Source: Noviherbaspirillum suwonense (GTDB taxonomy: Bacteria > Pseudomonadota > Gammaproteobacteria > Burkholderiales > Burkholderiaceae_D). From it: a stretch of 64,000 nucleotides of DNA. Location: the NCBI RefSeq assembly GCF_900182955.1, contig NZ_FXUL01000008.1, positions 62,001 through 126,000 on the forward strand. Reading direction: 5' to 3'. The position numbers and the translations under genes were made by a program. The notes under the pieces were generated by a model. That model made no database searches. It was not told the origin of the DNA and saw nothing but the letters and a program-made list of their open reading frames with translations. The stretch's first letter is position 1. Each line of letters starts with the position of its first letter. Below, piece after piece: positions 35,325-62,347 of the stretch.

Positions 35325-35347
35325 GACAGTTGGCAGGATTGTGTCCG
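35325..35347 (+). promoter_or_regulatory. Upstream activator element, copy 1
   Basis: GACAGTTGGC (35325-35334) and TGTCCG (35342-35347). The same pair recurs at 60533 and 61544, each beginning exactly 131 bp before the -24 element. GACA/TGTC half-sites are inverted. Position and recurrence suit an enhancer for a sigma-54 activator. Confidence 0.6.
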
Positions 35348-35455
35348 ATCGCATCCAACACGCCGCCCGCCGCAAGCTTGCCGGCCTGCTATCGAAACCA
35401 TGGAAATGTTATCCGTCCGGCAGCGTTTCGGCCGGTTTTCAGCTGATTCGCGGGC

Positions 35456-35470
35456 TGGCACGGTTGATGC
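35456..35470 (+). promoter_or_regulatory. Sigma-54-type promoter, peptide gene 1
   Basis: TGGCACGGTTGATGC fits the -24/-12 consensus TGGCACG-N4-TTGC at all key positions (GG and GC correctly spaced) with one deviation, A for T. Identical in all three copies. It ends 67 bp before the start codon. Confidence 0.75.
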
Positions 35471-35480
35471 GATATGTGCT

Positions 35481-35501
35481 GCGAGCCCAACGAAAGCTCG
35501 C
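35481..35501 (+). other. 5'-leader hairpin, copy 1
   Basis: GCGAGC-N9-GCTCGC inverted repeat beginning about 11 nt after the -12 GC, so at or next to the predicted transcription start. A 5'-terminal hairpin could protect the mRNA. Conserved in the other two copies. Confidence 0.65.
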
Positions 35502-35537
35502 CAACCAACCCAAACCACTTCACTTAGGAGAACTACC

Positions 35538-35774
35538 ATGAAAGCACTGATGATCAAGGACCTCGCCGTCACCAAGCAACTCGGCGCAGCAGAAATGTCG
35601 GCCGTTCGCGGCGGCAGCAACTACAACGTCGGCAACGTCAACTATGCGAAGAGCGGCGGCTTCGCCAGCCCGTCGGCCGTGATCGCGCCTGTCACGCAAG
35701 TGGACGTCACCTCGCACACGACCAACCAGCTGCTCCAGAACTTCGGCGGCGAACAGTTTGCCGGACTGCGGTAA
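35538..35774 (+). CDS. Double-glycine leader peptide, paralogue 1
   Basis: A 78-aa precursor. Residues 1-26 form a leader ending L-G-A-A-E-M-S-A-V-R-G-G, with L(-12), E(-8), M(-7), V(-4), G(-2), G(-1), as required by C39 peptidase exporters. The predicted core of 52 residues is Asn/Ser/Ala/Val rich, with no Cys and 'NYNVGNVNYAKSGGF' at its start. Start chosen by the AGGAG ribosome-binding site 8 bases upstream. It is nearly identical to 60745 and 61756 except at the last residues. It has its own sigma-54-type promoter, 5' hairpin and 3' hairpin, and is divergent from the kinase. Not modified by any enzyme encoded here. Export or signalling roles are inferred. Confidence 0.85.
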   Translation: MKALMIKDLAVTKQLGAAEMSAVRGGSNYNVGNVNYAKSGGFASPSAVIAPVTQVDVTSHTTNQLLQNFGGEQFAGLR

Positions 35775-35787
35775 GCACGCGGCGACT

Positions 35788-35814
35788 GCCGGAGACCGCG
35801 ACGCGGTTTCCGGC
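35788..35814 (+). other. GC-rich hairpin after peptide gene 1
   Basis: GCCGGAGACCGCG and CGCGGTTTCCGGC pair over 13 bp with one G-T wobble and a one-base loop (a real loop would open a few pairs). No T-run follows, so it may stabilise or pause the transcript rather than end it. Equivalent hairpins follow the other two paralogues. Confidence 0.65.
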
Positions 35815-35858
35815 GCATGGCTGTCGCCACTCCGTTGAGTGCGCCGGCGGCGAACGCA

Positions 35859-36494
35859 TTAATCCGACTTCCCCGCATGCCTTAACATCGCTTCGCCCAA
35901 CGCGGTATCGCCCTGCGCCACCAGCGCTTCGCCCGCGCCGACGATATCGGCCACATCCCGGTTCTGGCTGAGCTTCGCCTTGCCGACCAGCCGCGTGATC
36001 CCGATTTCCAGCCCGACGATCGCCTTCAGTTTCGCATCGATAAATTCCCTGGGGCTGTCCGCCATTTTCCATGGCTCGGGCTGCGTGGCTTCATGGGTGC
36101 GCGTCAGCCGCCCGACGACGCCACGCACGAACCGTTCATCGTCCCGGATCGCGATGCGACCGTGCGCATGTGCCACCATGTAATTCCAGGTCGGCACCTG
36201 CATGTGATCCACATGCTTGCTCGGATACCAGTTCGGCGAGACATACGCATCGGCCGCCCGGAAGACCACCATCACCTCGTCGCCGTCCGCGACATCCTGC
36301 CACACCGGGTTGGCGCGCGCGACATGGGCGCGCAGCATGCCCAACTCTCCCTCCGCCGCATGCAGTTCGAACGGGATATGGTTGGCGTCCAGCCCGCCCG
36401 CGCCATGCGTGACCAGCAGGCCGAACGGATGCTGGCGGATGAGCTCATGCAGCACCTCGGTGCTGGTCACGTCGAAATGGGCGGGCACATACAT
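35859..36494 (-). CDS. FMN-binding PaiB-like regulator
   Basis: A 211-aa protein of the PaiB/FMN-binding split-barrel family, whose Bacillus member was described as a negative regulator of sporulation and protease genes; most members are probably FMN-dependent enzymes or flavin-binding proteins. 'MYVPAHF' opening, 'HPFGLLVTHGAGGLDANHIPF', 'YVSPNWYPSKHVDHMQVPTWNY' and 'VVGRLTRTHE' are diagnostic. The start at 36494 has AGAGGA nine bases upstream; an ATG three codons earlier would leave no spacing. Confidence 0.92.
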   Translation of the reverse strand: MYVPAHFDVTSTEVLHELIRQHPFGLLVTHGAGGLDANHIPFELHAAEGELGMLRAHVARANPVWQDVADGDEVMVVFRAADAYVSPNWYPSKHVDHMQVPTWNYMVAHAHGRIAIRDDERFVRGVVGRLTRTHEATQPEPWKMADSPREFIDAKLKAIVGLEIGITRLVGKAKLSQNRDVADIVGAGEALVAQGDTALGEAMLRHAGKSD

Positions 36495-36994
36495 AAAGGT
36501 CATTCCTCTGTTCAGGCGATAACGAACCGGCGCGGTTTTTAGGATTTCCGGTGTCGGCCCCAATTCTTGCATACGCCGCTTCCGGTGAAGCAGGCTTCAG
36601 CGCGTTTTTTAAGCTGCTGCCGAGATTCGGTAGACGTTCGAATAAAGGATTTCGCGATTCCATCTGGGGATAATTCAAACAAGCCGCCAGAGACCAGTCG
36701 TTTCTCGAATTGATGTTTCGCCCAAAGAAAGCGCGCCGCTGGGTGAAACGATTGAAGAAAGCAGGAATATCGCCATACGCCGCGAAAGACATACTGATGG
36801 CGATGGCGATCACGGCGGCAGGAATCTTTCCCCGTGCACGGTTGAAAAGGACATCAACGTCGCATTCGCTCCCAATGCCGAGCCGGCCTGACTGCCTTCG
36901 AATCGATTTATTCGCCTGCGGACAGGCGTGACCGCGCCGGCCCCGGCGCGAAGCGCCAAGGCCAGCTGCGGTCTGTCGTTATGGTGTCAGCGGA
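36495..36994. other. Intergenic region
   Basis: About 500 bp with no gene I can support. Two overlapping frames (plus 36710-36931, minus 36445-36813) have no ribosome-binding site or recognisable protein character. The paiB-like promoter must lie near its left end. Confidence 0.4.
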
Positions 36995-37312
36995 TCAGTC
37001 GAGCGCGAGGAAGACCCGTCCGCCTTCTATCCTGATCGGGTAGCTCCGGATCGCTTCCGTCACCGGCGCGCACAGCGGCGCCCCGGTACGGATGTCGAAC
37101 CTGCCCTGGTGCAGCGGGCATTCGATCTCATGCCCTTCCAGGAAGCCTTCGCACAGCCTGGCGTGGCCATGGGTGCAGATGTTGTCGGTGGCGTAGAACT
37201 CGCCGCCGGCGTTGTAGAGCGCGATGTCGCGGCCGCCGACGACGATGCCGATCACGTCGTCTTCCGGCACCTCGTCCACGGCGCTTGCGTCTGTCCATTG
37301 CTGCTTGTCCAT
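36995..37312 (-). CDS. nagAb: Rieske-type ferredoxin of aromatic hydroxylase
   Basis: A 105-aa Rieske [2Fe-2S] electron carrier for the adjacent oxygenase. The cluster ligands are in '[11 protein letters not shown]' and 'CPLHQGRFD' (C-x-H and C-x2-H). Length and context match NagAb, which delivers electrons to naphthalene dioxygenase and salicylate 5-hydroxylase. Last gene of the gdo-oxygenase run. The symbol is by context; a generic aromatic-dioxygenase ferredoxin is the alternative. Confidence 0.85.
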
Positions 37313-37319
37313 GGCGGCC

Positions 37320-37790
37320 TCAGATCGGGTAGATGATGGAGTTGGGGATCATTTCGCTGTCGTAGATGACCTGACGCGAGCTGAACTTCAGTCCCTCGGG
37401 CGTGCGCACCACGACATCGATATAGCGACCGACGTTGAATACCGAGGACAGCTCGGAGAGCTTGGTGCGGAACACCGCGTAGTTCGCCTCGCATTCGAAG
37501 CGCTCGCCCTCGGCCTTGCGCACCACCGGCGCGCCGACGACATGCCGCTGGTAATACGGGTCGTGGAACAGCGTCTCGCGGATGCCGTAGACACGGTCCT
37601 TCAGCATGCCCTTGCTCTCGAAGGACAGGGTCGCCAGCGGGAAACCGCGGTCGTAGTTTTCCCGCGGCTGCAGCCGGTAGCTGCATTCCTCGGTGAAGAA
37701 CTCCGGCCACAGTTCCCACTGCCCGGAACTGACGGCGCTCGCATAGTCGGCGTAGAGCTGCGTGAGCTCGAAATAGTCCTGGAAATCCAT
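37320..37790 (-). CDS. nagH: Aromatic-ring hydroxylase small (beta) subunit
   Basis: A 156-aa beta subunit with the SnoaL-like fold of ring-hydroxylating dioxygenases ('[65 protein letters not shown]'-type start is typical; 'DPYYQRHVV' follows). It would assemble with the large subunit as an alpha3-beta3 or similar complex. It starts 2 bp before the end of the alpha gene's stop region, so the two are translated together. Best match by context is NagH of salicylate 5-hydroxylase. Confidence 0.85.
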
Positions 37791-37792
37791 GA

Positions 37793-39058
37793 TCAGTCCT
37801 CCATTTCGCGGCGCCAGTATTCGTACATGCCGCGGATCAGCGTCTCGGTCACCATGTGGTCGGTGTCGCCCACCTCGCGCCCGCCCAGTTCCGCGAGCGT
37901 GCGGTGGTAAGGCTTCTGCTCGAAACCCTTCTGCGACAGCTCGATCACCTCGCCGTCATCGGCCGAGACGAAGCCCGCCGGCCCGAACAGGTTTGCCTGG
38001 CGCAGCCGGCGCTGCGTCATTTCCCCGGTGTCGTCCTCGAAGCCGAAATGCGTCCAGACGAAGTCGAACGAGCCGTTGCCGTTCGGCTGGATATGCCGGG
38101 TCGAGACGCTGTTGACCTGCTGCTGCAGGATCACGCTGGGGAACAGCGTCATCATCACCGCGGTCGGCCCGCCCCACCAGGGTTCGGGCATGATGTCGAG
38201 AAAGCGCGGGTCGTTGAGCTGCATGCTTTCCTTGAAGCTCGACACCTGCGTGACCTGCCCGGCCTTGCCGCTGGCGCCGCGCGTGGAAATCATCGCGGCA
38301 TGGCGATGGTGCGCATCCATCTTCAGTTCGGACTTGTTGTCGGCGCGCCAGAGCCCAAAGGTCACGAACCAAGTGTGCAATAAGCCCGGGTGGTACGGAT
38401 CCTTGATGTTTTCCTGCATCAGCTTCCAGTTGCCGGGAATGCGCTGGCGGTTATAGCCGAGTATCGTCAGCTTGCGGCCGTTGAACAGGCGGTCGAAATA
38501 GCCGAGGATGGTCGGTCCCATGAAGTCCTCGAGCGACTCGATGTCCGGGTCGAACGAGGCGAACACCACGCCGCCCCGCGCTGCGACCCTCAGCCTGGTC
38601 AGCCCGTGCTCCGCGGTCTTGAAATCGGCCGGCATGCCGCCGTTGACCTTGCCGTCCTGCCTGACGCCGCGCCGGAACGGAACGCCCTGCAGGTCGCCCT
38701 GGAGCGAGTAATTCCACTGGTGGTAAGGGCAGGTAAAGCCGCTGTCCTTGCGGTTGCCGTGGCGTTCGCGGCAGAACTGCATGCCGCGGTGGGCGCACAC
38801 GTTCTCGACCACGTTGATGCCGCCGTCGGCGTCGCGCACCATGATGACCGAGCGCTCGCCGACCACCGTGCGCTTGAAGTCGCCCGGATTCGGGATCTCG
38901 GCTTCCAGGCCCACGTAGCACCAGTGCTTGCGGTAGAAGAAGCGTTCGAGCTCCTTGCGATGCTGGTCGGCCCCGGTGTAGGCCATGAACGGGATGCGGC
39001 TGGTGCCGTCGGACTCCCAATGTATCTTATGCGGAAATACGGTGGATGCGTTGTCCAT
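37793..39058 (-). CDS. nagG: Aromatic-ring hydroxylase large subunit, salicylate 5-hydroxylase-like
   Basis: A 421-aa catalytic alpha subunit. Rieske ligands: 'CAHRGMQFC' and 'CPYHQWNY'. The mononuclear iron site has the typical NxxDxYHxxxLH in '[14 protein letters not shown]', giving the two His and the bridging Asp. NagG-type enzymes convert salicylate to gentisate; the gentisate 1,2-dioxygenase gene lies 135 bp upstream and the divergent regulator resembles NagR, so this substrate fits. An anthranilate- or other substituted-benzoate enzyme of the same clade cannot be excluded. GAGGAG precedes the ATG. No ferredoxin reductase gene (nagAa) is present. Confidence 0.82.
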
Positions 39059-39193
39059 GTTTTGTCTCCTCGCAAATGCGGGTTCAGGATGCCACTGTAA
39101 CGGTGATTTCTCCTAGGCCGGCGATTGCGCCCTTGCGCACATCGCCGCGCTCGACCGCGTTCACGCCGTCGGGCATGTCCTGGAGGCACCCGG

Positions 39194-40240: not shown

Positions 40241-40476
40241 GGGTCTCACTCCTTTGCCTCTTTTAATTGGATGCCGCTTGTCCGGCTGCCGCGGTATCAG
40301 GCTGCTCTACCGGCGCCGCAGGCTTTCATTATCTATGCCGTGAAGCTTCGTTCATCGCGGACAAGATGCGTGCCGGGCTTGCCCGGCGAACCTCCTTGCG
40401 GGGAACGCTTATCCGGCGCATCGATTTCCGATGTGGATAAGGATAAAAACTAATCTAATATAAGGAAATAGCATCT

Positions 40477-40483: not shown

Positions 40484-40517
40484 GTATCCCATCACTCCCA
40501 GGAATATTGCTGCCGTC

Positions 40518-47967: not shown

Positions 47968-50409
47968 CTAGGTTACAACCGCCTTATCCACTTCAAATTC
48001 AAAAAAACGCGGATCGGCTATTGTTTCACCTTGAAAATTTCGGCTGATTTCAACAGTCACGAGGCTATCGCCGGCAAATGCAGGACTTAGTTCCAATGTT
48101 AGATAGTCAAATAGTGCGCGCTCATGTACAGCCACGATAAGTTGTTTGCCGAGACCTTTCGAAAGGGTCCGAAGCAAGGCTGCAAATTGAGCCACGTGCA
48201 GGTCGTCCATTGACTGAACAGGGTCATCCAGCACCAACCAGGGGAGCTGTGACGGTACAGAAAGATTTAAGGCCAGAAATAAGGTTAGTGCTGCCGTATT
48301 CAGATTGCCTTGGCTCAGCATTGTCCCAGGAGCACCACCGGCTAATCCGGATTTATGCAAAGTCTCCAATACAGCCTCGACCTTGCCATCATCATGAGGC
48401 GGGAGCTGAAATTGAGGAATAAACTGCTCACTCGGCGCCAATCGCACGAATAGGTCGCGCCAAATTGTGTTGAGAGAGCCGCTGAAAACGTCACGGACAA
48501 TGCCCGAACGCACCCCTGAAGCTGCTGCTGCCACAAGCTTCGCAGTATCACGAACCTCTCCAACTTCCCTCATGGTTTTCTTAATGACATCCGACTTACT
48601 TCTAACTTTCTGCTGCTGTTCCTTCCGGTTTGTATGCAGTTCGAGTTCACGTTCATACTGGTCGAGTTCCGAGGCTAGCGAAACGCGAAGAGTTAAGCGC
48701 GCCTCAATTTCCGAAATGCGATTTAGAATTATGACTTCTGCTTCCCTAAGCCCTTCTTGCAATGTGGGAAAATTCGTTGTCGGTAGTTTGGTAATCCTTT
48801 CAACAATCATCTGAATTTCTGGAAGCAATGTAGCGGAGGAGTGAATTGCCTTACGAATTTCGCTGACTTCCCGTCTCGCATTAGCTAACGCGGTCCCAAT
48901 CTGTCGGCCTTTAATCGATTCGATCTGAAGTTCGGCTAGCCTTCCATTTATGGAGGTTACAGTAGAGAGGCGTTGCCTCCATACAAGAACGGAATCAGAG
49001 TCCAGAGTGCCGCGCTCAGCTACGACCAAATCGCGCTGCGCAATAGTTAGCCTTTCATTTTCAGCTGCACGTTCAGCAGCTAATGATTGCAGACGGCCAG
49101 CTTCACTGGTCAGATTAGCGATTGTTGCAGCAATATGGGTAGTTAGAGGCTGTGTGTGCACTTCACTATAATCCCGGCTACAGACGGGACACAGGTTAGC
49201 CTCCACATGAGGCGCAATACCAGCCAAAGCATTCGCAAGAGTTCTAGCATCTATTGCTCCGGCGGCTAAGAGTTCGTTTATCTCTCTTATTCGCGTGGAA
49301 GCACGTTGCACCACACCTTGAGCGGTAATAAGCTTTTCGTTCGAGTCGGTATGTTGTTCCAATACTCTATTACATCGACTTATTTCGCTTTTACACCAAT
49401 GGAGCGCCTCATCCATCACAGTCGCTAGGTCACTATCCGAAGTGGAAAGCTCGGAGTTATAAGGCCTTAGATCTGTAACTGCCTGACCAATCTGAGAACC
49501 GGGCCCGTTAAACCAAGATTCGAATTCGGCGGAAAGTTGGGCTTCGGCTCTCTCTTTCTCTGCGATATCGGCATCAGCGCTTTCCTCTCCTAATTTGGTG
49601 AGTCGAGTTATCAAAGAAGCGACTTGGGATTTATTCTGAACTGCCTCTGAGAGTTTTTTTTCATCACTCTGGCCGTCGGCCAACTGCTTCCTTAGGGTAA
49701 TAACGGACAAACCCATTTCAAGCTTCGATGGCTGACCAGTAAGGCTAGACAGCATGTCATTAAGGCGAGTAAGTCTTGTGTTTATAGCCCCAAAAGCACT
49801 ATCTATATTTTCTTGAAGGCGACTTGCCTGGCTCTCGTAATTCTCTAGAAGAGCCTCAAGTTGTTTGTATGCAGGTGCTATTTTTCTGACCCGCGTGATA
49901 TTGAAAGCGTGGCTAAGGCCCTCCGCCAATGCGTCCAATGGATCTAGACGCAGTAATTCCTTTACAAACTGCGTAAGCCTGGAATTGGTGTTACTGCTTT
50001 GTTCATCATAGATCTCAAGCAAGCGTCCCAGCACTCCTTGTGGGAGAAAACAGCGCTCGGAGAAGAAGGACGCATAGGAACTAGAGAGTACGGGGTTTGA
50101 TTCAAAGACTTCAGGAGAAAAAGTCAGGCTCCCTTTGCCATTGCCCTGGTATTGCGGCAAGTGCTCGGCCACTAACTCGATAGAGCCTGAATGAGCCGCA
50201 AAATTTGTAAGGAAGTCTCTATAACTCGACTTATTTTCAAGATGAGCAATCCTGCCAGTAAGACCGAGTTCCAATGCTGAAAGAATGCTCGTCTTACCCA
50301 TACCATTGGCTCCGTGCACCAAGATTACTTGGGCATCGAGCGGTACAACTATCTGGCCGTGTATGCTACGGAAGTTTTTGATCGTTAGCGACTTAAGTTT
50401 GGGACTCAC
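47968..50409 (-). CDS. Rad50/SbcC-like ABC ATPase with zinc hook
   Basis: An 813-aa SMC-type ATPase. Walker A 'GANGMGKTS' at 33-41; long coiled coils on both sides of a 'LCPVCSRD' motif near residue 407, which matches the CxxC zinc hook of Rad50/SbcC; signature 'MLSQGNLN' near 695; Walker B 'LVLDDPVQSMDD' near 723; His switch 'VAVHE'. The GTG start overlaps the stop of the middle gene (GTGA), so translation is coupled. Third gene of a SIR2-middle-ATPase operon, comparable to three-component ABC conflict systems. The reading frame has lower GC than the flanking genes. Confidence 0.88.
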   Translation of the reverse strand: MSPKLKSLTIKNFRSIHGQIVVPLDAQVILVHGANGMGKTSILSALELGLTGRIAHLENKSSYRDFLTNFAAHSGSIELVAEHLPQYQGNGKGSLTFSPEVFESNPVLSSSYASFFSERCFLPQGVLGRLLEIYDEQSSNTNSRLTQFVKELLRLDPLDALAEGLSHAFNITRVRKIAPAYKQLEALLENYESQASRLQENIDSAFGAINTRLTRLNDMLSSLTGQPSKLEMGLSVITLRKQLADGQSDEKKLSEAVQNKSQVASLITRLTKLGEESADADIAEKERAEAQLSAEFESWFNGPGSQIGQAVTDLRPYNSELSTSDSDLATVMDEALHWCKSEISRCNRVLEQHTDSNEKLITAQGVVQRASTRIREINELLAAGAIDARTLANALAGIAPHVEANLCPVCSRDYSEVHTQPLTTHIAATIANLTSEAGRLQSLAAERAAENERLTIAQRDLVVAERGTLDSDSVLVWRQRLSTVTSINGRLAELQIESIKGRQIGTALANARREVSEIRKAIHSSATLLPEIQMIVERITKLPTTNFPTLQEGLREAEVIILNRISEIEARLTLRVSLASELDQYERELELHTNRKEQQQKVRSKSDVIKKTMREVGEVRDTAKLVAAAASGVRSGIVRDVFSGSLNTIWRDLFVRLAPSEQFIPQFQLPPHDDGKVEAVLETLHKSGLAGGAPGTMLSQGNLNTAALTLFLALNLSVPSQLPWLVLDDPVQSMDDLHVAQFAALLRTLSKGLGKQLIVAVHERALFDYLTLELSPAFAGDSLVTVEISRNFQGETIADPRFFEFEVDKAVVT

Positions 50410-50993
50410 TGGTCTGTCTCCCCGTCTTCCAACGTTCGGTCTGCGCGCGACGCTATATCTTCCGCAAGAGCTTGTTCGACAGCATCCTTTCCGTTTTGGG
50501 CTTGTAGAATGAATTGTGTGATTAACGCTTGAGGCATAACCTGACTTAGGTTTTCCTCAAGCGCTGAACGCCAGTTAGCAAGATGTTCCACAGGTGGTGG
50601 GCTCTTTATCGGAAGCAATACGGCAAGCCAGTCCCGCACATGCTGGGTCGCATTTGCTCCAGAAGGAGCTCCAATTGGAAGGACTCGGCATACCCTATTT
50701 ATAGCGTTCATCAGTTCCTTGTCCGCTTGGCCTGAGGTCAGCACAACCGTAACAGATCGTCGAGATCCAAAGACATCGAGGGCGCGTGTAAACGCAAGAA
50801 TAGACCTCGCTACAGAAGTGTTGTCAGTGGCACCAGTCAACTCAACGACGAGAACAAGATCATTTCCTTTGTCTGTGGCAGATAGAATATGGGTAAAGTC
50901 GAATTCTTGAGACCCTATTTTTATCGGCTTTTGAAGTGATTTGTAATGTCCTTCTGTAGTTAGTATCTCGAATACGCGATCAGTTGTAGTCAT
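50406..50993 (-). CDS. Middle protein of the SIR2/ABC operon, unknown fold
   Basis: A 195-aa protein I cannot place. The N-terminal part is alpha/beta: 'KIGSQEFDFTHILSATDKGNDLVLVVELTG' then 'FGSRRSVTVVLTSG'. A D...x...E-x-T arrangement (residues about 33-53) vaguely recalls nuclease folds but no complete motif is visible. The C-terminal part is helical and acidic. Start and stop each overlap a neighbour by four bases, so it is made in step with the SIR2-like protein and the ATPase, and probably bridges them, as middle components do in ABC-3C systems. Confidence 0.75.
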   Translation of the reverse strand: MTTTDRVFEILTTEGHYKSLQKPIKIGSQEFDFTHILSATDKGNDLVLVVELTGATDNTSVARSILAFTRALDVFGSRRSVTVVLTSGQADKELMNAINRVCRVLPIGAPSGANATQHVRDWLAVLLPIKSPPPVEHLANWRSALEENLSQVMPQALITQFILQAQNGKDAVEQALAEDIASRADRTLEDGETDQ

Positions 50994-52678
50994 AGACCAA
51001 CCTCTGCTACAAAACGTTGACGAAAATCAGCCAGCGAGGTGCTGCTTCCAAGCAAATCCTCGACACCAATATATCTAGGTGTTAACCGCCCATTTCGAAG
51101 ATTTGCAGATGGGCTTCGTTGCTGCCGCTGGCTAACGGTGCGCGAGCAGACGACCACAACATCTTGGTCATCTGGATCGAATGCACCAGACTTAATTAGT
51201 CCGTTAATCTTATCGTCACTAGATGCAAAGAATATGCGTGCATCGACCCCTTGTACACAAATACGCAGTGCCCCTGAAGTTATTTCGGTCGGATCATCGA
51301 CAGTAACCTCCCAACCGGAATCGTGCATTTCAAGCCCAATTACACCAAGGGTAGTAGCAACCTCTATCTGCCCTGTATATGGCAAGGTGGTATCTGCCGC
51401 CATTTGATGTGTGGGCTTAGAGTGCACCGGAGCGTAAGGCCGTTGCCCGACTTCACTCCTCCCGCCTAAAAATTGCTCTGTAAAGCGTCCCATTAAACGT
51501 GAAATTGTAATAGCGAGCCCGTATCTATCCGCATTGCCATGCTTAGCTGCCTTGTCCCGGAGCTTTTTAACGCCTTCAATGAGCATTTGTCTCCCTGCAA
51601 CGTCGATACTTGGCGCATTAACCCTGTCCACAAGTGTTTCGATCTTCCGGGAAATATTTTGCAACAGCAAAGCCAAAAGTAACTGTTTGGAAAATGCCGG
51701 CAACTTTGCATCGGCGCAAATCTGGTCACGATTTGCCTCATATTCAGGATGATATGCGCCCTCGAGAATAGATTTTTGTCCCGCGGTTAAACTTTGCGCC
51801 GAAAAAATAATTGGTACGGGTTTATTGTTCCACTTCCATCCTTTTGAACCAAACATCAACTGGATATTAGAATCTTGCGCGGACAGACCTATCATCAAAG
51901 TTCTTGTTCGAGAGACAAGGGCGTTTAATTGAATGCGTATCTCATTGAAATTTTGGTTGCTAGACCACTGGTTAATAGTGGCTTCACGTGCGACAAGTAG
52001 ATCCCGGTATTGGTTTTCAGCTGCAATCGCGCGATTGGCGCAACCATGAAATTTGTAAAGCGTAGCAGTTGCAACTGGTCCCTTTAAATCGTCACCCCTA
52101 ACTGCCACTCGATAAAAATCTGCGGGCTGTCCTAACTCAACCATCGCTGCTTCTAGAAGCGCATCCCAGTTGGCAGTGGCTAATTCCGAGACAACTCCTT
52201 CTAACACCAGCATTCCAACAGCCAGATGTTCAGCATCAGGCACCTGGGATGAGAATGTGTTTTTAAAATCTAATACGTCCCACAATAAGTAATCGAGTTT
52301 TTGGCCCTGCACTTCTATGCCCAAAACTTTTGAATACTTGTTCCATAGACGATCTATTACAGTCGTTAGGCAGGGCCAGTTAGATGCAGCGATATTAAAG
52401 TCGACTCCCACTCGATCAGCTCGAGTAAGATCGGCAAGATCTAGGATTTCGGAGAGCGCCTGGTAGTGCGGGCAATCTACGGCGTTGCTTATCCTTTGTC
52501 GTAGGGATTCTAGGAGCTTCGCCAAAACTCCATCGAGGCCGACGACTCGTTCTCGAGATATTGCTGAGCCCAGCCACAAGGCATACATGCCAGTTTCAAA
52601 TCCAGTAGCAAATTCTTTGAACTCGTTTTCGAGCAATCTAATAGTTTCCTCTATGGAAATATTCGCAGCGTTTGCCAA
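50990..52678 (-). CDS. SIR2-like domain effector protein
   Basis: A 562-aa protein, first gene of the operon, with TTG start eight bases after GAGGAG. The N-terminal half is a SIR2-type NAD-binding fold: 'ALWLGSAISRE' (34-43), 'TANWDALLE' with Asn170, 'LYKFHGCAN' with His211, and 'MIGLSAQDSNI' (262-272). These match the nucleotide-binding Gly, Asn and His of SIR2-like defence NADases. The C-terminal half is of unknown type, possibly a sensor or partner-binding region. In defence systems SIR2 domains deplete NAD+ on phage infection; here the ABC ATPase would be the trigger. That function is inference. Confidence 0.82.
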   Translation of the reverse strand: MANAANISIEETIRLLENEFKEFATGFETGMYALWLGSAISRERVVGLDGVLAKLLESLRQRISNAVDCPHYQALSEILDLADLTRADRVGVDFNIAASNWPCLTTVIDRLWNKYSKVLGIEVQGQKLDYLLWDVLDFKNTFSSQVPDAEHLAVGMLVLEGVVSELATANWDALLEAAMVELGQPADFYRVAVRGDDLKGPVATATLYKFHGCANRAIAAENQYRDLLVAREATINQWSSNQNFNEIRIQLNALVSRTRTLMIGLSAQDSNIQLMFGSKGWKWNNKPVPIIFSAQSLTAGQKSILEGAYHPEYEANRDQICADAKLPAFSKQLLLALLLQNISRKIETLVDRVNAPSIDVAGRQMLIEGVKKLRDKAAKHGNADRYGLAITISRLMGRFTEQFLGGRSEVGQRPYAPVHSKPTHQMAADTTLPYTGQIEVATTLGVIGLEMHDSGWEVTVDDPTEITSGALRICVQGVDARIFFASSDDKINGLIKSGAFDPDDQDVVVVCSRTVSQRQQRSPSANLRNGRLTPRYIGVEDLLGSSTSLADFRQRFVAEVGL

Positions 52679-53030
52679 CCGTTTTCTCCTCTATTTCTGA
52701 TCCAGCGATTTTATTTTTTCAAACTATCATTATATAACGTATCGCATTAACTCGAAATTTGTTCAAGGCTGGACCATTAAAGTGTTGCCGTATTTTGGCT
52801 CCATTTCTAAGTTGATGGCTGCTTTACCAATTTTTTTCTACCGATCATTAGAAAAAGTCCGCTTCCAGTATGTATGACGCTTCGGGAAACTGCCGTTGAC
52901 GCTGGCTGGGCCAACGGCATAAGCCCAATCCATCTGAACGTTGCCAGAACAAAAAAGCGGATTTTGATATGCATTTAAAAGTAACTTAACGGACCGGCAA
53001 TTAGGTCGGTTGATGGTAAAGCGGCGTCCA
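52679..53030. other. Intergenic region within the island
   Basis: About 350 bp, AT-rich near the SIR2 gene's promoter (52700-52830). A minus-strand 68-codon frame at 52838-53044 reads like decayed protein and is not supported. A GTCCGCTTCC word at 52857 recurs in reverse at 47898-47907. Confidence 0.4.
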
Positions 53031-53663
53031 TTAAGATGGATCACTAACCACTCTCATAAGCTCTCTACCGACGGTAGTGAGGATCCATACTCGGTCTAAC
53101 TCGGTTATTAATCCGAGTTTTGCTAAATGAACATGGTTGAATGTTTTTCGTTCGTTGAGCAGTCCTAGTGTCGTACGCGACGCTAATGCTTTAAGAATCT
53201 TAATGGTGAGCGGAGTCGCTTCATCTTGTTGAGCTATCTTTAGGAGCAAAACCGCATCGCGTGATGTCAATCTTGAAAGTAATTTTGCTATTTCTGGATG
53301 AACGCTGCCGTCAATAAATTCATTTGCTAATAAGTTCGCCCACAAACCTCTAATCGTGGTGTCAGTTTGATTGTCGGTATTTTCGAGTGCTTCATAGACA
53401 ACTCCAGGCTTAACGATAACATCAGGTTTCAGTCCGGTTATCGATTCTTGGATTTTTTTGTGTGCTTCTTCAAAGCATTTCGCGGCGATAATCTTCTGTT
53501 CGTCTTCTAGTTTCGAGAATCGCAGTTCTATTAAACGGCCGATGCCTTCCGTAGTGGCAGTTAATGGATAGATCAGTTTCTCGAATGTGGCACATGCTGT
53601 TTTTGCAAGTTGAGCCCAAGCTTCCTTCGGAATCGACTTAACGATGTTTGCTGGATTGTCCAT
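53031..53663 (-). CDS. DUF4393 / Abi_alpha family protein
   Basis: A 210-aa cytosolic protein. 'LIELRFSKLEDEQKIIAAKCFEEAHKKI' and 'DTTIRGLWANLLANEFIDGSVHPEIAKLLSRLTSRDAVLLL' match the DUF4393 family (Pfam Abi_alpha), associated with abortive infection. The C-terminal 'LTTVGRELMRVV' resembles the winged-helix-like tail of the family. I start at MDNPANIV; an in-frame extension upstream to 53822 is Arg-rich and lacks a ribosome-binding site. It supports a defence role for the island. It reads on the same strand as the SIR2 operon, upstream of it. Confidence 0.75.
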   Translation of the reverse strand: MDNPANIVKSIPKEAWAQLAKTACATFEKLIYPLTATTEGIGRLIELRFSKLEDEQKIIAAKCFEEAHKKIQESITGLKPDVIVKPGVVYEALENTDNQTDTTIRGLWANLLANEFIDGSVHPEIAKLLSRLTSRDAVLLLKIAQQDEATPLTIKILKALASRTTLGLLNERKTFNHVHLAKLGLITELDRVWILTTVGRELMRVVSDPS

Positions 53664-53863
53664 TTTCGTTTCGCCCAAAAATCTAATGTTTGCTAAGATC
53701 GGCAGGACAGACTTCACCCGGCTTGGCGAGCGATGCCGTTCAATTAAGGGACTAGGCCTGCCGGATGGCACAGATAAACAATCGTAAAATACGTAATCTT
53801 TTCTAACTCTGCGCCGTCGCAACCGCCTAATTTACTGGAGAGATCAAAGCGTCTCGATTCTTG

Positions 53864-54367
53864 CTAGCGAATTTGCCCCATCAGCGCATGCCAAGAACTT
53901 TGCAGAACCTCGCGAGTAAGTCCGCGTGTGGTTGGATAGGGCGCCACTTCATGCGCAATGCCTGCCGCTTCTACAATCGGCTGTGAATACTTCGCCTGTC
54001 CAATGCCAAGAATCCAGACGCCGTGGGGTTCGATCTGCTTGAGAACACTCTTAAACGGTTCGCACGCGGCTTCAAAATGCTCGTTTTTTGATCGACTTTC
54101 TCTGCCTTCTGCAATAGACCCCGGCACGAAATTGTAAAAGGCGATTTGATTCCAAAACCTCAGGCGGTCCTCCGGTGTCGATTTAGTTGTATGCATTCCC
54201 GAGCCGGTGTTAAAGATCTTGCTAAAGCTCATGTCGCGGACTTTGCGCGAAGCCCAACCACGAATGAATTCCGGCAGATCTTGCGTCTCTCCATACCATG
54301 ACTCACCCAAGACTAGCACGCTCCGTTCTGCAGATAAGTAATTTTCGCCAATCCAAATGTCCCGCAT
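53864..54367 (-). CDS. Protein distantly like uracil-DNA glycosylases
   Basis: A 167-aa protein. 'RSVLVLGESWYGETQD' near the N-terminus, 'FWNQIAFYNFVPG' in the middle and 'HGVWILGIGQAKYSQPIVE' resemble the order of motifs in the uracil-DNA glycosylase superfamily (GExxxG, FxN..P, then a strand with G). The catalytic residues cannot be assigned with confidence. AGAGAG precedes the ATG. It lies at the right side of the AT-richer island, 200 bp upstream of the Abi_alpha gene and on the same strand. It may be a base-modification or nuclease-like defence component. Confidence 0.6.
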   Translation of the reverse strand: MRDIWIGENYLSAERSVLVLGESWYGETQDLPEFIRGWASRKVRDMSFSKIFNTGSGMHTTKSTPEDRLRFWNQIAFYNFVPGSIAEGRESRSKNEHFEAACEPFKSVLKQIEPHGVWILGIGQAKYSQPIVEAAGIAHEVAPYPTTRGLTREVLQSSWHALMGQIR

Positions 54368-56754: not shown

Positions 56755-56771
56755 GGGTTTCCTTTGCGGTT

Positions 56772-58349: not shown

Positions 58350-58642
58350 GCTGCAGCAACGCTGTTTTTATCGTTTGAATGCGGCTCGATAGCTTGTCAA
58401 AGCTTCAACATCAAGCTTAGCATGCCGCCTGCCGTGTTGGCATCACACAAATTAACTATAGGGAACATCTTGCTTTACCGATGCGACCCGGCAGCGCTGG
58501 CTGGTCGCGGTGCGCCGCGCCGGCGGAAATGCCTGCCGTCGCGCTGGTCCATTCATAAACGTTGCCGCGTGCGCCTGCCTTTGCGGGAATCGCAACGCAC
58601 TTGGACTAGAATGGCGTCCAAATCCAGTGAGAGGGCCGGCTT

Positions 58643-59212: not shown

Positions 59213-59281
59213 GGGCGGGCCGGCGGTTAACGACGGTTGCGATTGGCTGCTTAATCGGCTTTTAGGATGCGCTGCGGGTTT

Positions 59282-60001
59282 TTAAACGGCGTCGATCCAG
59301 CGCGACATTGCCCTGATGACGGCGTCAGGCTGTTCAAGCGGCGCCATGTGGCCGCAACGCTCCAGCACCAGCATTTCCGCTTCACGAATCCCGGATGCCA
59401 TCTCCTCGCTGCAATCCAGGGGCGTGACCTGGTCTTCGCGTCCGCACAGGACCAGGGTCTTGCAGCGTATATCTTTGAGCAAGGGCCGGCTGTCCGGCCG
59501 ACCTATCGCCGCCCGCTGCTGCCGTACGAATCCGTCCGGGCCGACGCTGCGGGCCATCGACAGCAGGAGATCGCCAAGCGCCGCATCGTTGACCCGCGAC
59601 GCATGGACCAACCGCGGCAGGAAGGCAGCCGCCAGCGCATCGAAGCCGGCTGCGCCGCTGCGCGCATTTACCAGCGCGGCAATCATGCGTTCCCTGCCGA
59701 TGATCGATTCCGGCAAGTCCGGGCGGGCGCTGGTGGCGATTAATGCCAGGGCCGCCACGCGCTCCGGCGCGCGACGCAGTATCTCGAACGCCACGTAGCC
59801 GCCGAGTGAAAATGCCGCCAGCGCAAACGGGCCGGGCGGCGCACTGGCAAGCGCCGTGGCGGCCAGCGCGGCGACGGACGCGTGGCCGGAGCAGTCCGCG
59901 ACCTGACATTGATGCTCGTTCATCGCGGCAATGACAGGCTGCCAGACGCGGGCGTCGTTCATGAGACCTGGAAGTAAAAGTAAGGGAATAGGTTGATTCA
60001 T
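59282..60001 (-). CDS. Alpha/beta-fold hydrolase
   Basis: A 239-aa hydrolase. The nucleophile is in 'LAAFSLGGYVAFE' (GxSxGG), the acid in 'VLCGREDQVTPLDCSEEMA' and the His in 'ERCGHMAPLEQPDAV'. The size matches small esterases and lactonases. It is divergent from a MerR regulator with a clear palindrome in the shared promoter, so it may be its target. The substrate is unknown. Confidence 0.9.
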   Translation of the reverse strand: MNQPIPLLLLPGLMNDARVWQPVIAAMNEHQCQVADCSGHASVAALAATALASAPPGPFALAAFSLGGYVAFEILRRAPERVAALALIATSARPDLPESIIGRERMIAALVNARSGAAGFDALAAAFLPRLVHASRVNDAALGDLLLSMARSVGPDGFVRQQRAAIGRPDSRPLLKDIRCKTLVLCGREDQVTPLDCSEEMASGIREAEMLVLERCGHMAPLEQPDAVIRAMSRWIDAV

Positions 60002-60041
60002 CGCTCGTTTCCAGAGAGTTAAACTGGCTCTACACTAAGTC

Positions 60042-60055
60042 TGGAGTGCGCTCCA
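60042..60055. promoter_or_regulatory. MerR-type operator
   Basis: TGGAG-TGCG-CTCCA perfect inverted repeat, 38-51 bp before the MerR gene and about the same distance from the divergent hydrolase start. The TGGAGT/CTCCA half-sites are like known MerR operators. Confidence 0.6.
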
Positions 60056-60092
60056 TGGTCAAGGGGTGCAACACAATTCATTGGAAGAAGGC

Positions 60093-60470
60093 ATGTTGAT
60101 TTCTGAATTTGCGAGCGCTTCGGGGTTGAGCATAGACACCGTGCGGTTCTATCTGCGGCAGGGATTACTGACCCCGAAACGCAGCAGTAAAGGCGGCGCC
60201 GGCGGCTACCGGGAGTTCGGTCCCGACGAATTACGCATTGCGGCCGGGATCCGGACAGGCCAGGCGCTCGGCCTGTCCCTGGCCGAGATCAAGCGTTTTA
60301 TCGTCGAACGACGCTCGGGTCCCCGCTCCGCTGGAAAAGGGATCGATGTAATGGAAATGCATCGCGAGCGGCTTCATCAACGACTGCTTGAATTGCAGCG
60401 CCTGCTTGCCTACATGGACAGGAAGATCGAGTGGATGAAAGGCGAAGGCGACGAGCCGGCGTGGCCCTAG
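60093..60470 (+). CDS. MerR-family transcriptional regulator
   Basis: A 125-aa regulator. HTH and wing: 'LISEFASASGLSIDTVRFYLRQGLLTPKR', then 'GYREFGPDELRIAAGIRTGQALGLSLAEIKRF'. A coiled-coil dimer helix follows ('RERLHQRLLELQRLLAYMDRKIEWM'). The protein is short with no extended ligand domain and no Cys, so metal sensing is unlikely. Start chosen by GAAGAAGG just upstream. Probably controls the divergent hydrolase and itself. Confidence 0.88.
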   Translation: MLISEFASASGLSIDTVRFYLRQGLLTPKRSSKGGAGGYREFGPDELRIAAGIRTGQALGLSLAEIKRFIVERRSGPRSAGKGIDVMEMHRERLHQRLLELQRLLAYMDRKIEWMKGEGDEPAWP

Positions 60471-60532
60471 GCGGCAACGGTTTTCAGGCGCGCACGAAGA
60501 CCGGCTTGGCAAGCATAACGATGGCGGTTGCC

Positions 60533-60555
60533 GACAGTTGTCAAAAACATGTCCG
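60533..60555 (+). promoter_or_regulatory. Upstream activator element, copy 2
   Basis: GACAGTTGTC (60533-60542) and TGTCCG (60550-60555), the latter also paired with CGGACA at 60563-60568. Starts 131 bp before the -24 element. A palindrome AAACCGCGGTTT follows at 60603-60614; the same place in copy 3 has AAAACC-CC-GGTTTT. Confidence 0.65.
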
Positions 60556-60663
60556 GCGAAATCGGACACGGCCACCGCCAAAATCTTGCCGCCCTTGTAT
60601 CAAAACCGCGGTTTCGATGCCATCCCGATATCGTTTTGCGCGTTTCATGGCTTTCCGGTGCGC

Positions 60664-60678
60664 TGGCACGGTTGATGC
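60664..60678 (+). promoter_or_regulatory. Sigma-54-type promoter, peptide gene 2
   Basis: TGGCACGGTTGATGC, identical to copies 1 and 3, ending 66 bp before the start codon. Confidence 0.75.
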
Positions 60679-60688
60679 GATATGTGCT

Positions 60689-60709
60689 GCGAGCCCAACG
60701 AAAGCTCGC
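60689..60709 (+). other. 5'-leader hairpin, copy 2
   Basis: GCGAGC-N9-GCTCGC, starting about 11 nt after the -12 element. Confidence 0.65.
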
Positions 60710-60744
60710 CAACCAACCAAACCACTCAACTTAGGAGAACTACC

Positions 60745-60981
60745 ATGAAAGCACTGATGATCAAGGATCTGGCCGTCACCAAGCAACTCGGCGCTGAAGA
60801 AATGTCGGCTGTGCGCGGCGGCAGCAACTACAACGTCCACAACGTGAACTATGCCAAGAGCGGCGGCTTCGCCAGCCCGTCGGCGGTGATCGCGCCCGTC
60901 ACGCAGGTGGATGCGACTTCCCACACCACGAACAATGTGCTGCAGAACTTCGGCGGCGAACAGTTTGCCGGCCTGTTTTAA
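60745..60981 (+). CDS. Double-glycine leader peptide, paralogue 2
   Basis: A 78-aa precursor nearly identical to 35538 and 61756. Leader ends L-G-A-E-E-M-S-A-V-R-G-G with GG at residues 25-26. The core begins SNYNVHNVNYAKSGGF and ends QFAGLF. AGGAG eight bases upstream. First gene of a two-gene operon with the 64-aa peptide at 61150; a terminator follows the second gene. The leader, promoter unit and 3' hairpin are shared with the other copies. No modifying enzyme lies nearby. Confidence 0.85.
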   Translation: MKALMIKDLAVTKQLGAEEMSAVRGGSNYNVHNVNYAKSGGFASPSAVIAPVTQVDATSHTTNNVLQNFGGEQFAGLF

Positions 60982-60994
60982 TCCGGATGGCGGA

Positions 60995-61021
60995 GCCGGG
61001 CGCTGCAATGCGGCTCCCGGC
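60995..61021 (+). other. GC-rich hairpin after peptide gene 2
   Basis: GCCGGGCGCTGC and GCGGCTCCCGGC pair over 12 positions with one mismatch and one wobble. It lies between the two peptide genes and lacks a T-run. Confidence 0.6.
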
Positions 61022-61149
61022 AGATGCACATCAATATCCATCGCCGCGCCGTCCCGCAGGGACTGGCGCGGCGCCTATACTGGAAGCGACAGCGCGTTAC
61101 TCCTTGCGCCGCTTCCGGCGACCGACCCACATTGATGGAGGTAGCAACC

Positions 61150-61344
61150 ATGGCGACCATACACATTAAAGACCTGAGCGACAGCACCGAACTGGACCGC
61201 GAGGCCATGCGCGCCATCGTCGGCGGCGCACGCGGCGGCAGCCAGCCGTGGCAGGCCATCGCCGAGGTGTTCAAAGACAGACGCATCGTCGACTACCCGC
61301 CAGGCTTCAAGCCGCGCACCCCCGTGCCAGCCAGCAGGAAATAA
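61150..61344 (+). CDS. Double-glycine leader peptide, second of operon 2
   Basis: A 64-aa precursor with the leader ending L-D-R-E-A-M-R-A-I-V-G-G (GG at 25-26), so it fits the same export signal though the core is unrelated. The core (38 residues) is basic and Pro-rich toward the end ('PPGFKPRTPVPASRK'). The start has GGAGG eight bases upstream; an earlier in-frame start is out of place for the leader. A strong terminator follows. It may be a second peptide of a pair with 60745. Confidence 0.8.
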   Translation: MATIHIKDLSDSTELDREAMRAIVGGARGGSQPWQAIAEVFKDRRIVDYPPGFKPRTPVPASRK

Positions 61345-61363
61345 AGCGGCAGGTTGCCGACAC

Positions 61364-61388
61364 ATCCACCTTCGGGTGGATTTTTTTT
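61364..61388 (+). terminator. Rho-independent terminator of peptide operon 2
   Basis: ATCCACC-TTCG-GGTGGAT followed by a run of eight T, a textbook terminator with a TTCG loop, 20 bp after the 61150 gene. Confidence 0.9.
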
Positions 61389-61543
61389 GCGTGATGGTTG
61401 TTGGCGAGCAGACGGCCTGTATCGGCCGAAAATCAGTCTGTGCTTCGGGCATCTCCGGAACGTCTCCCGATCCGTATTCGTACAGATGCAACCAGGCCGA
61501 CGGAAGAGGAAGCGTGTGCGGCTCGGGTCGGTTGTCGAGACCA

Positions 61544-61566
61544 GACAGTTGTCCAAAAGATGTTCG
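61544..61566 (+). promoter_or_regulatory. Upstream activator element, copy 3
   Basis: GACAGTTGTC (61544-61553) and TGTTCG (61561-61566). It starts 131 bp before the -24 element. The AAAACC-CC-GGTTTT palindrome is at 61613-61626. Confidence 0.65.
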
Positions 61567-61674
61567 CCCGCGCCATACGCCCGCCGCGCCCGTATGTGGT
61601 CAGCCTGGCACCAAAACCCCGGTTTTTGATGTCCTTCCAACATGTTTTCCCCCGTTTTCCCCGCCCCGGCGCGC

Positions 61675-61689
61675 TGGCACGGTTGATGC
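61675..61689 (+). promoter_or_regulatory. Sigma-54-type promoter, peptide gene 3
   Basis: TGGCACGGTTGATGC, as in copies 1 and 2, ending 66 bp before the start codon. Confidence 0.75.
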
Positions 61690-61699
61690 GATAGGTACT

Positions 61700-61720
61700 G
61701 CGAGCCCAACGAAAGCTCGC
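61700..61720 (+). other. 5'-leader hairpin, copy 3
   Basis: GCGAGC-N9-GCTCGC, conserved with copies 1 and 2. Confidence 0.65.
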
Positions 61721-61755
61721 CAACCAACCAAACCACTCAACTTAGGAGAACTACC

Positions 61756-61989
61756 ATGAAAGCACTGATGATCAAGGACCTGGCCGTCACCAAGCAACTC
61801 GGCGCCGAAGAAATGTCGACTGTCCGCGGCGGCAGCAACTACAACGTCCACAACGTGAACTACGCCAAGAGCGGCGGCTTCGCCAGCCCGTCGGCGGTGA
61901 TCGCGCCGGTGACCCAGGTCGACGCGACGTCCTATACGCATAACACCATGCTGCAAAACTTCGGCGGCCTGCAAGGCGCCATTCTGTAA
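61756..61989 (+). CDS. Double-glycine leader peptide, paralogue 3
   Basis: A 77-aa precursor. Leader ends L-G-A-E-E-M-S-T-V-R-G-G (GG at 25-26). The core shares the SNYNVHNVNYAKSGGF start and differs at the end ('SYTHNTMLQNFGGLQGAIL'). AGGAG eight bases upstream. It heads a two-gene unit with the 96-aa peptide at 62057. Confidence 0.85.
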   Translation: MKALMIKDLAVTKQLGAEEMSTVRGGSNYNVHNVNYAKSGGFASPSAVIAPVTQVDATSYTHNTMLQNFGGLQGAIL

Positions 61990-62000
61990 GCAGGCGACGG

Positions 62001-62027
62001 GCCGGGAGCGGCGACACCGCTCCCGGC
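62001..62027 (+). other. GC-rich hairpin after peptide gene 3
   Basis: GCCGGGAGCGG-CGACA-CCGCTCCCGGC, a perfect 11-bp stem 11 bp after the stop codon and 29 bp before the next peptide gene. No T-run. Confidence 0.75.
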
Positions 62028-62056
62028 AGCGCCCACCGACCACGACGGAGACCGAC

Positions 62057-62347
62057 ATGAGCACATTACGCATCAGCGACCTTGAAACGAGCCGCGTCCT
62101 GGGCAGCCAGGCGATGTCCACCATCCGCGGCGGCGATGGCGCCCGCTGGGTGTATGGATGGATCGCGGCATTCAATCCGCTGGCAGGCCGCGCCAGTTCG
62201 GCGGCAGTAAATTTTGTGCAGAACAACACGATCTTTATGGCCGAGCAGATGACCAACCAGTTCCTGCAGGTCGGCGTGAACAACACCGGCGCCGCTGCCA
62301 ACATCAACGTGATGCCCACCACCGTCGGCATCACGCAGAAACAGTAA
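62057..62347 (+). CDS. Double-glycine leader peptide, second of operon 3
   Basis: A 96-aa precursor. The leader ends L-G-S-Q-A-M-S-T-I-R-G-G (GG at 25-26), close to the 61756 leader, but the core (70 residues) is different: Trp-rich at the start ('DGARWVYGWIAAF') and then Asn/Ala/Val/Thr rich, with no Cys. GGAGA six to nine bases upstream. It may be the partner of 61756. No terminator was seen before the phosphatase gene, but that gene has its own -10-like box. Confidence 0.8.
   Translation: MSTLRISDLETSRVLGSQAMSTIRGGDGARWVYGWIAAFNPLAGRASSAAVNFVQNNTIFMAEQMTNQFLQVGVNNTGAAANINVMPTTVGITQKQ

Follow-up and report, generated by a model that had tools for sequence, protein, structure and literature searches.

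Introduction

In Proteobacteria, multi-copy genes for exported proteins of the PEP-CTERM/EpsH system share an upstream activator motif and a sigma-54 motif, and the distribution of the motif matches that of a dedicated sigma-54 activator, as set out in excerpts of the report on that system (PMC1569441). For HetC of Nostoc, excerpts of a second report (PMC10986499) describe in vitro binding of ppGpp by a cNMP-type domain, which is also required in vivo; the HetC substrate is not identified in that report. Sigma-54 regulons, double-glycine (GG)-leader peptides and peptidase-containing ABC transporters (PCATs) are each already known. Here we analyze a 64,000-nt stretch of the Noviherbaspirillum suwonense draft genome (contig NZ_FXUL01000008.1; referred to as the window), in which three promoter units, each located 5' of a GG-leader peptide gene, are very probably, as judged from their sequences, the promoters of a dedicated sigma-54 regulon that serves a peptide-secretion system.

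Three promoter units in the window

The three units (copies 1, 2 and 3; window coordinates throughout) each precede a type A GG-leader peptide gene (3/3): 35538..35774 (78 aa), 60745..60981 (78 aa) and 61756..61989 (77 aa), all on the plus strand. GACAGTTG[T/G]C starts at 35325, 60533 and 61544, TGTYCG at 35342, 60550 and 61561, the -24/-12 box TGGCACGGTTGATGC at 35456, 60664 and 61675, the stem-loop GCGAGCCCAACGAAAGCTCGC, 21 nt long and identical in all copies, at 35481, 60689 and 61700, and AGGAGAACTACCATG at 35526, 60733 and 61744. A first, sequence-only reading of this DNA had described this order of elements, a fixed distance from the first element to the box and a diverged sequence in between, and all three descriptions held: the starts of GACAGTTG and of the -24 box are 131 bp apart in 3/3 copies, and pairwise identity between copies is 49-59% over offset 29-131. 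The boxes (35456..35470, 60664..60678 and 61675..61689, plus strand, pattern matches) have the GG and GC of a sigma-54 promoter with 10 bases between them (TGGCAC..TGC type) in 3/3 copies. Exact matches to the 15-mer box are confined to these three places in the 6.45-Mb draft genome, and one further place matches with one mismatch; the backward-read pattern, allowing up to one mismatch, gave 1 match in the genome. One sigma-54 gene was found in this genome.

The sigma-54 activator gene that the same reading had placed beside two of the copies (2 and 3) is real and extends from 63230 to 64522, beyond the window end (63230..64000 within the window, minus strand). Its 430-aa product contains an AAA+ domain (PF00158, 2.5e-70) with the GAFTGA motif and, by eye, a C-terminal helix-turn-helix of the Fis type. 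The Pfam scan that found the AAA+ domain revealed no receiver or other sensor domain; in the orthologue alignment, the roughly 90 N-terminal residues show partial conservation.

In relatives, the activator site is a 19-bp palindrome, TGTTGG-N7-CCAACA, 5' of a GG-N10-GC sigma-54 box, and the elements first read as GACAGTTG and TGTYCG each represent half of one of two such palindromes. The downstream one, at -114 from the -24 T and with no strand assigned, is TGTCCG-N7-CCAACA in copy 1 (35342..35360; 18.2 bits), TGTCCG-N7-CGGACA in copy 2 (60550..60568; 14.3 bits) and TGTTCG-N7-CATACG, with a weak right half, in copy 3 (61561..61579; 10.7 bits). The upstream site, at -146, is CGGTTG-N7-CAGACA in copy 3 (61529..61547, again without strand; 9.6 bits), where it overlaps GACAGTTGTC (61544-61553). 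In copies 1 (35310..35328, plus strand; -1.0 bits) and 2 (60518..60536, plus strand; -0.1 bits) the right half alone fits; this half is GACA in copy 1, whose site includes the start of GACAGTTGGC (35325-35334), and in copy 2 the site overlaps GACAGTTGTC at 60533-60542. The enhancer role originally given to GACAGTTGTC was not supported. The element consists mostly of the upstream palindrome's right half, extended by sequence specific to the genus: GACAGTT is retained in 5/5 promoters of this genome and in 0/3 from N. soli. As an independent enhancer it was rejected, because in N. soli GACA alone fits, which is the right arm of the palindrome. Nor could the AAACC..GGTTT palindrome noted in two of the copies be generalised to the whole system; an ATCAAAACC-like stretch recurs inside this genome, and no equivalent was established in other genera.

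Activator sites and boxes in relatives

In most array-first peptide genes of relatives, the box lies about 80 nt 5' of the start codon (40 promoters from 17 genomes). These promoters score at least 13.5; L102:11863 and L094:870 were removed by hand as likely coding overlaps, the latter being probably a true promoter after all, as a later activator-site-plus-box match fell at the same place. After one redundant and one short-upstream promoter had been dropped, 38 of the 40 were used for the motif. The palindromic motif search on these 38 non-redundant upstreams, three of them from the window, reached a log-likelihood of 412 versus 90.6-93.6 for 8 shuffles, which were run with fewer starts than the real search. 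Within these Oxalobacteraceae upstreams, which are the model's own training set, a site of at least 9 bits was present in 38/38, versus 167/3943 background stretches from the same loci, and a pair of sites 31-33 bp apart (mostly 32) in 29/38 versus 8/3943. The sites cluster near -158/-126 or about 11 bp nearer the box, consistent with helical phasing.

Held-out promoters from outside the Oxalobacteraceae were selected on the basis of box and GG leader, without regard to the activator site. From 125 promoters, we excluded 13 in Oxalobacteraceae-like loci, 7 with a start other than TGGCA and 1 whose upstream was short, and a 70% identity filter reduced the remaining 104 to 80 non-redundant ones. 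A site was present in all 80, and in 67/80 it occupied the training positions (-129 to -123 or -118 to -114), compared with a mean of 0.16 and a maximum of 2/80 in shuffles; with windows widened post hoc, after the listing had been viewed, the count rose to 76/80 (shuffles: mean 0.31, maximum 2). Separated by promoter type, the site pair was found in 31/46 type A promoters and in 0/34 preceding the type B peptides described below. An IHF-type pattern, relaxed after viewing the data, occurs in 27/38 Oxalobacteraceae upstreams; 25 of these matches lie at -41/-42, where 12/34 type B promoters match the classic IHF consensus. As a combined pattern, activator site plus box gave 39 matches in 21 genomes, most of them picked for having such peptides or the activator, versus 1 for the backward pattern. 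A box-plus-site scan yielded 190 matches 5' of a recognised leader peptide and 116 elsewhere, overlapping loci being counted repeatedly.

The sequence-only reading had proposed, as a check on itself, that the elements should be conserved while the rest drifts; this is what we found, both across related genomes and between the window copies. The layout of enhancer plus sigma-54 promoter that it had suggested likewise recurs, with the same box, sites and spacing, 5' of homologous peptide genes in many genera and is strongly supported by this conservation. As a side observation, several Paraburkholderia and Caballeronia loci (L179:16806, L197:16740, L198:16612 and similar ones) carry a second sigma-54-like box in opposite orientation to the type B promoter; this outward-facing box shares the activator sites of the type B promoter.

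Co-occurrence with the activator

Orthologues of the activator (64-83% identity) are present in 13/97 family genomes and are clearly set apart, the lowest scoring 568.7 bits versus 253.2 for the next listed activator. In wider samples the orthologue is patchy (3/300 in the order and 3/369 in the class, own genome included). The plasmid records in which the activator was met had no annotated genes at that place. Across the 97 family genomes, the pattern of site plus box was found in 11/13 with the orthologue versus 10/84 without it (Fisher p 2.2e-7). The named loci were obtained through a search with the peptidyl-prolyl isomerase (PPIase) of the locus. Among the best 80 of 264 confirmed relatives, 77 encode the activator (those without it are L212, L239 and L241) and 79 the exporter, and in 69/69 loci where a sigma-54 box accompanies one or more leader peptides the activator is present. 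Activator sites and an AAA+ activator are thus both at hand, paired by co-occurrence alone, and together with the box they argue strongly, at the level of sequence, for sigma-54 control of the peptide promoters.

In genome G003, of the same genus, no activator orthologue was found at E 1e-70; promoter and stem-loop survive there 5' of a frame-broken peptide gene (G003:C3, L104:6991), and a second promoter-like site lies at L104:5783, which suggests that G003 lost the system. In another genome, 86% complete, a leader-peptide promoter and a fragmented kinase match are present (G023:C280, L126), and no activator orthologue was found.

Several observations weigh against assigning all these elements to one dedicated regulon. 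In the window, copies 1 and 2 have no more than a half-site at the upstream position, copy 3 has two weak sites, and an IHF-type pattern at -41 was not seen by eye in any of the copies; it also occurs in just 2/46 Burkholderiaceae type A promoters. Type B promoters have no 32-bp pair (0/34) and, by eye, no stem-loop. The 10/84 activator-less genomes with a pattern match stand against 2 backward-pattern matches in all 97 genomes, so that some pattern matches are background or something else. Two activator-bearing genomes, G001 and G096, gave no strict-pattern match; G001 nonetheless has such promoters. Of the 116 non-peptide matches, some precede other genes and others may be chance. Finally, a looser box-plus-stem pattern without the activator site matched 23/294 family genomes, and several of the matches came from genomes in which we saw no such peptide. 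Scattered matches were obtained with the backward control as well.

Copy number and further members

The count of three copies had to be revised, as the genome has at least five such promoters, the extra two being cut at contig ends (G000:C12:16-143 and G000:C17:16-143; L158, L159). A fourth peptide gene sits at the extreme end of another contig (G000:C32:69542-69763, L008). Probably, repeats of the peptide unit broke the assembly, and the draft undercounts the family. The strict pattern finds five places in this genome, namely copies 1 and 2, the two contig ends C12 and C17, and C8:197626, and misses copy 3. At the C8 site (G000:C8:197626-197754, L157), the palindrome TGTCGGGTCCGGCCCGACA lies 114 bp 5' of TGGCACGCTCCGTGC; no recognised leader peptide comes next, and a 36-aa open reading frame (ORF) is followed by one of 380 aa.

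In relatives, such promoters precede a leader peptide gene directly 5' of the PPIase-ABC-activator genes (L110:1774, Massilia), the gene for an outer membrane efflux protein (OEP) in one Burkholderia (L239:3720), a gene for a small signal-peptide protein in Noviherbaspirillum (L124:5382) and, in Caballeronia (L198:16612), a gene for a protein that looks LRAT-like by eye and presumably resembles LRAT proteins. A similar promoter with a leader stem-loop was noticed at G000:C2:289077 (L105:7078), below the activator-site threshold used in the box-plus-site scan; its product, also a small signal-peptide protein, resembles that of L124:5382, and we take both products to be DUF4148-like.

The leader stem-loop

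Counted from the -12 GC, the stem-loop begins 12-13 nt downstream, where the mRNA 5' end is predicted. In the window it occupies 35481..35501, 60689..60709 and 61700..61720 on the plus strand, with folding z values of -3.83, -3.48 and -3.48, and CGAGC recurs at the matching position in 42/46 held-out type A promoters. Over 110 leaders (distinct 60-nt texts, many nearly alike, type B excluded), the mean folding energy was -8.0 versus -3.4 kcal/mol for letter shuffles, and 108 of the 110 fold better than the shuffled mean. In 21 leaders chosen by hand, the very sequences from which the 6-pair stem had been read, 89.5% of cells were paired versus 85.3% after shuffling (reached in 2/500), 7 cells had changed on both sides versus 2.4 (1/500), and the covariation score was 0.184 versus 0.125 (4/500). 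The number of pairs with a two-sided change (70/500) and of pair types (356/500) was not exceptional relative to shuffles of these 21 leaders.

The secretion locus

Divergent from copy 1, on the minus strand, are genes for a Ser/Thr protein kinase (33049..35088; PF00069, 7.3e-41), a 638-aa protein (31101..33017; no family found in the scans made), a DUF4399 protein (30051..31076; PF14347, 3.2e-35), an FHA-GAF-HD (HD-GYP-like) protein (28089..30032), a TolC-like OEP (26659..28533; PF02321, 1.1e-48; true start probably near 28090), an FHA-domain protein (24007..26646; PF00498, 4.7e-30) and a HlyD-type membrane fusion protein (22668..24041; PF13437, 7.2e-19). A candidate divergent sigma-54 box toward this kinase operon, TGGCATCGCCCATGC (35221..35235, minus strand), would share the 35342 palindrome at -125; no counterpart was matched in relatives, and we tentatively keep it as a candidate only. 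The type A gene of copy 3 is followed by a type B peptide gene and then, on the same strand (plus), by a PP2C-type protein phosphatase gene (62469..63233; PF13672, 1.6e-14). On the strand opposite to the copy 3 genes, extending past the window, lie the genes for the sigma-54 activator, a C39-ABC exporter and the PPIase. The exporter, encoded beyond the window, has a C39 peptidase (PF03412, 7.1e-40), PF00664 and PF00005 as well as two N-terminal cNMP-binding domains.

The locus recurs in Massilia, Paraburkholderia, Caballeronia and Cupriavidus, including the laboratory strain Paraburkholderia xenovorans LB400 (L197); the top match in the PPIase search was Noviherbaspirillum soli SUEMI10. In L110 and L112 it forms one module of PPIase-ABC-activator, PP2C and peptide array, followed by kinase, DUF4399, HD-GYP and OEP. 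Most Paraburkholderia loci have the order DUF4399-peptide-OEP-FHA-HlyD-PPIase-ABC-activator, with PP2C and the type B peptide opposite. Two distant genomes of the class kept the exporter operon, and the stretch fetched from them showed no recognisable leader peptide; on the side expected for peptides, the contig begins no more than about 170 and 910 bases away from the activator match. Elsewhere in the window, two ORFs at 47968-54367 differ from most of the stretch in their low third-position G+C (0.44 and 0.53) and are perhaps acquired DNA.

The peptides

The three type A products share the start MKALMIKDLAVTKQLGAxEMSxVRGG, a GG leader. Differences between the copies fall mostly in third codon positions (16/20, 18/26 and 13/17 over the first 63 codons), a bias that favours real proteins. 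On the same strand as the copy 2 unit follows a type C GG-leader peptide gene (61150..61344, plus, 64 aa) with similar peptides in relatives, and a hairpin with T-run resembling an intrinsic terminator, as read from the sequence, closes this unit (61364..61388, plus). The type B peptide (62057..62347, plus, 96 aa; WVYGW type) has homologues that adjoin PP2C in many relatives. None of the five window peptides matched a Pfam model at E 0.01. As in known systems of GG-leader peptides and PCATs, a C39 peptidase-ABC exporter is encoded with GG-leader precursors, and the peptides are probably exported from the cell.

Over 235 peptide cores, asparagine and glutamine (N/Q) make up 18% of residues, compared with 6% for 18 further proteins encoded in the region, and Q..Q.Q and NGNN-like patterns are shared by eye. 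Such cores, encoded by many tandem paralogues, would be in line with an extracellular matrix or fibre of functional-amyloid-like type or with cell-cell signals, the more so as excerpts of PMC3162934 present sigma-54 control of cell-exterior functions as a general theme. The type B structure model contains low-confidence strands, which would also fit; however, the models are unreliable (mean pLDDT, a confidence score, of 44.2 for type B and 52.3 for type A), the type A model has no strands, and the Pfam matches obtained with 22 type A peptides at E up to 5 included no curlin family, in a search whose HMMER filters lose weak matches. We regard a matrix or signal function as a real possibility, a little short of an even chance. 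Less likely, in our view, though still to be reckoned with, is a bacteriocin function of the peptides, which would make the locus an unusually regulated bacteriocin cluster. GG leaders, a C39 exporter and many variable paralogues would suit bacteriocins, and Bacteriocin_IIc, a Pfam family of double-glycine leaders, matches 2/22 type A peptides (best 2.7e-5). This family is defined by the leader, however, the scan of neighbouring proteins revealed no recognisable immunity gene, and the N/Q-rich, patterned cores speak against bacteriocins as well.

Discussion

The mechanism that we propose starts with the private activator (63230-64522), which would bind one or two TGTTGG-N7-CCAACA palindromes about 114-160 bp upstream and contact sigma-54 RNA polymerase at GG-N10-GC, probably assisted in many promoters of relatives by an IHF bend at -41. 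The predicted mRNA start is 11-12 nt past the -12 GC and would place the small stem-loop at the very beginning of the message; there the stem-loop may protect the mRNA and thus contribute to its stability. The transcripts would encode GG-leader precursors, whose leader would be cleaved and whose core would be exported by the C39-cNMP-ABC transporter, HlyD and OEP of the same locus. The Ser/Thr kinase, the FHA proteins and the PP2C phosphatase of the locus probably set the activity of either the activator or the exporter.

It is conceivable that the units are indeed sigma-54 promoters driven by another enhancer-binding protein (EBP), e.g. a nitrogen or stress regulator, the neighbouring activator serving something else. 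Family genomes do encode many sigma-54 activators (up to 42 first-look candidates), and there are the ten activator-less genomes with a pattern match. Yet the palindrome-plus-box pattern tracks the activator orthologue, every one of the 69 named loci with a peptide promoter also holds the activator, and in G003, where the orthologue was not found, the single leader-peptide gene inspected is frame-broken behind its surviving promoter, so that we consider another EBP improbable. Hardly credible is that the upstream elements are passive remnants of a recent peptide-gene duplication, retained by ancestry and not by function: the sequence from box to start codon is nearly identical among the three copies and the peptides are 90-94% identical, but 5' of the box, where the copies are only about half identical, the elements keep their register, and in other genera, where upstream identity is below 70%, the same elements precede peptide genes that have diverged strongly.

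The interpretation of the three units as promoters of a dedicated sigma-54 regulon, for which the sequences show the elements, their conservation, the gene set and the co-occurrence with the activator, can be extended into a wider picture. According to this, Burkholderiales would possess a secretion and signalling module in which a large, fast-diversifying family of N/Q-rich GG-leader peptides forms the private sigma-54 regulon of a type I exporter, the activator is governed by Ser/Thr phosphorylation (kinase, PP2C, FHA) and not by a receiver or ligand domain, cNMP-type domains gate the exporter, and the peptides assemble outside the cell as matrix or signal. Taken as a whole, this picture is tentative, and we would rather doubt than expect that it holds in every part. 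The regulon would specify, for a peptide-secretion system conserved among environmental bacteria, the substrates, the exporter, the activator and the DNA code. The precise layout of site, box and stem-loop makes regulon members findable by sequence, and the system offers a directly testable link from Ser/Thr phosphorylation to sigma-54 activation.

Among known systems, the type VI secretion system (T6SS) is controlled by a toolkit of PpkA-PppA-Fha and a VasH-type EBP, and the locus shares with it a Ser/Thr kinase, PP2C, FHA and a sigma-54 activator; it differs in that no T6SS family was found among the proteins scanned and that the secretion parts are of type I. The PPIase of the locus matches TIGR04500, putative peptide maturation PpiC-related proteins (3.2e-25), but its 89.1 bits fall below the curated cut-off of 180, which leaves it outside that family by score. 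PCATs resemble the exporter in their C39 peptidase, ABC membrane and ATPase domains and in the adjoining GG-leader substrates, whereas here two N-terminal cNMP-binding domains are added and the substrate genes are apparently under sigma-54 and a private activator. The statement of the sequence-only reading that no regulon of this form has been described was partly right. Our searches of open-licence papers gave no account of the peptide-secretion regulon, and a term search of excerpts of the Paraburkholderia phymatum rpoN paper (PMC5979394) returned nothing on such peptides; however, PEP-CTERM/PrsR, as portrayed in the excerpts cited above (PMC1569441), is a described sigma-54 regulon of similar form. 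Like the present system, PEP-CTERM/EpsH (exosortase) with PrsK/PrsR combines multi-copy export-substrate genes with an activator motif and a sigma-54 motif. It differs in that PrsR has a response-regulator receiver domain and a histidine kinase partner, where the peptide locus has a Ser/Thr kinase and PP2C, and in that the substrates here carry an N-terminal GG leader and would be exported by the C39-ABC transporter. Consistent with these differences, the Pfam scan placed no receiver domain in our activator, which scored 293.9 bits against NCBIfam PEP_resp_reg, below the cut-off of 502.6, and by these two scans falls outside the PEP-CTERM/PrsR group. HetC of Nostoc is a C39-ABC transporter with an N-terminal cNMP-type domain, i.e., with the same kinds of domain as the exporter; it differs in that the excerpts of PMC10986499 do not mention a sigma-54 regulon for it. 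Of the described systems that we found, HetC is the nearest exporter by its domains, and PEP-CTERM/PrsR is the nearest system of this form.

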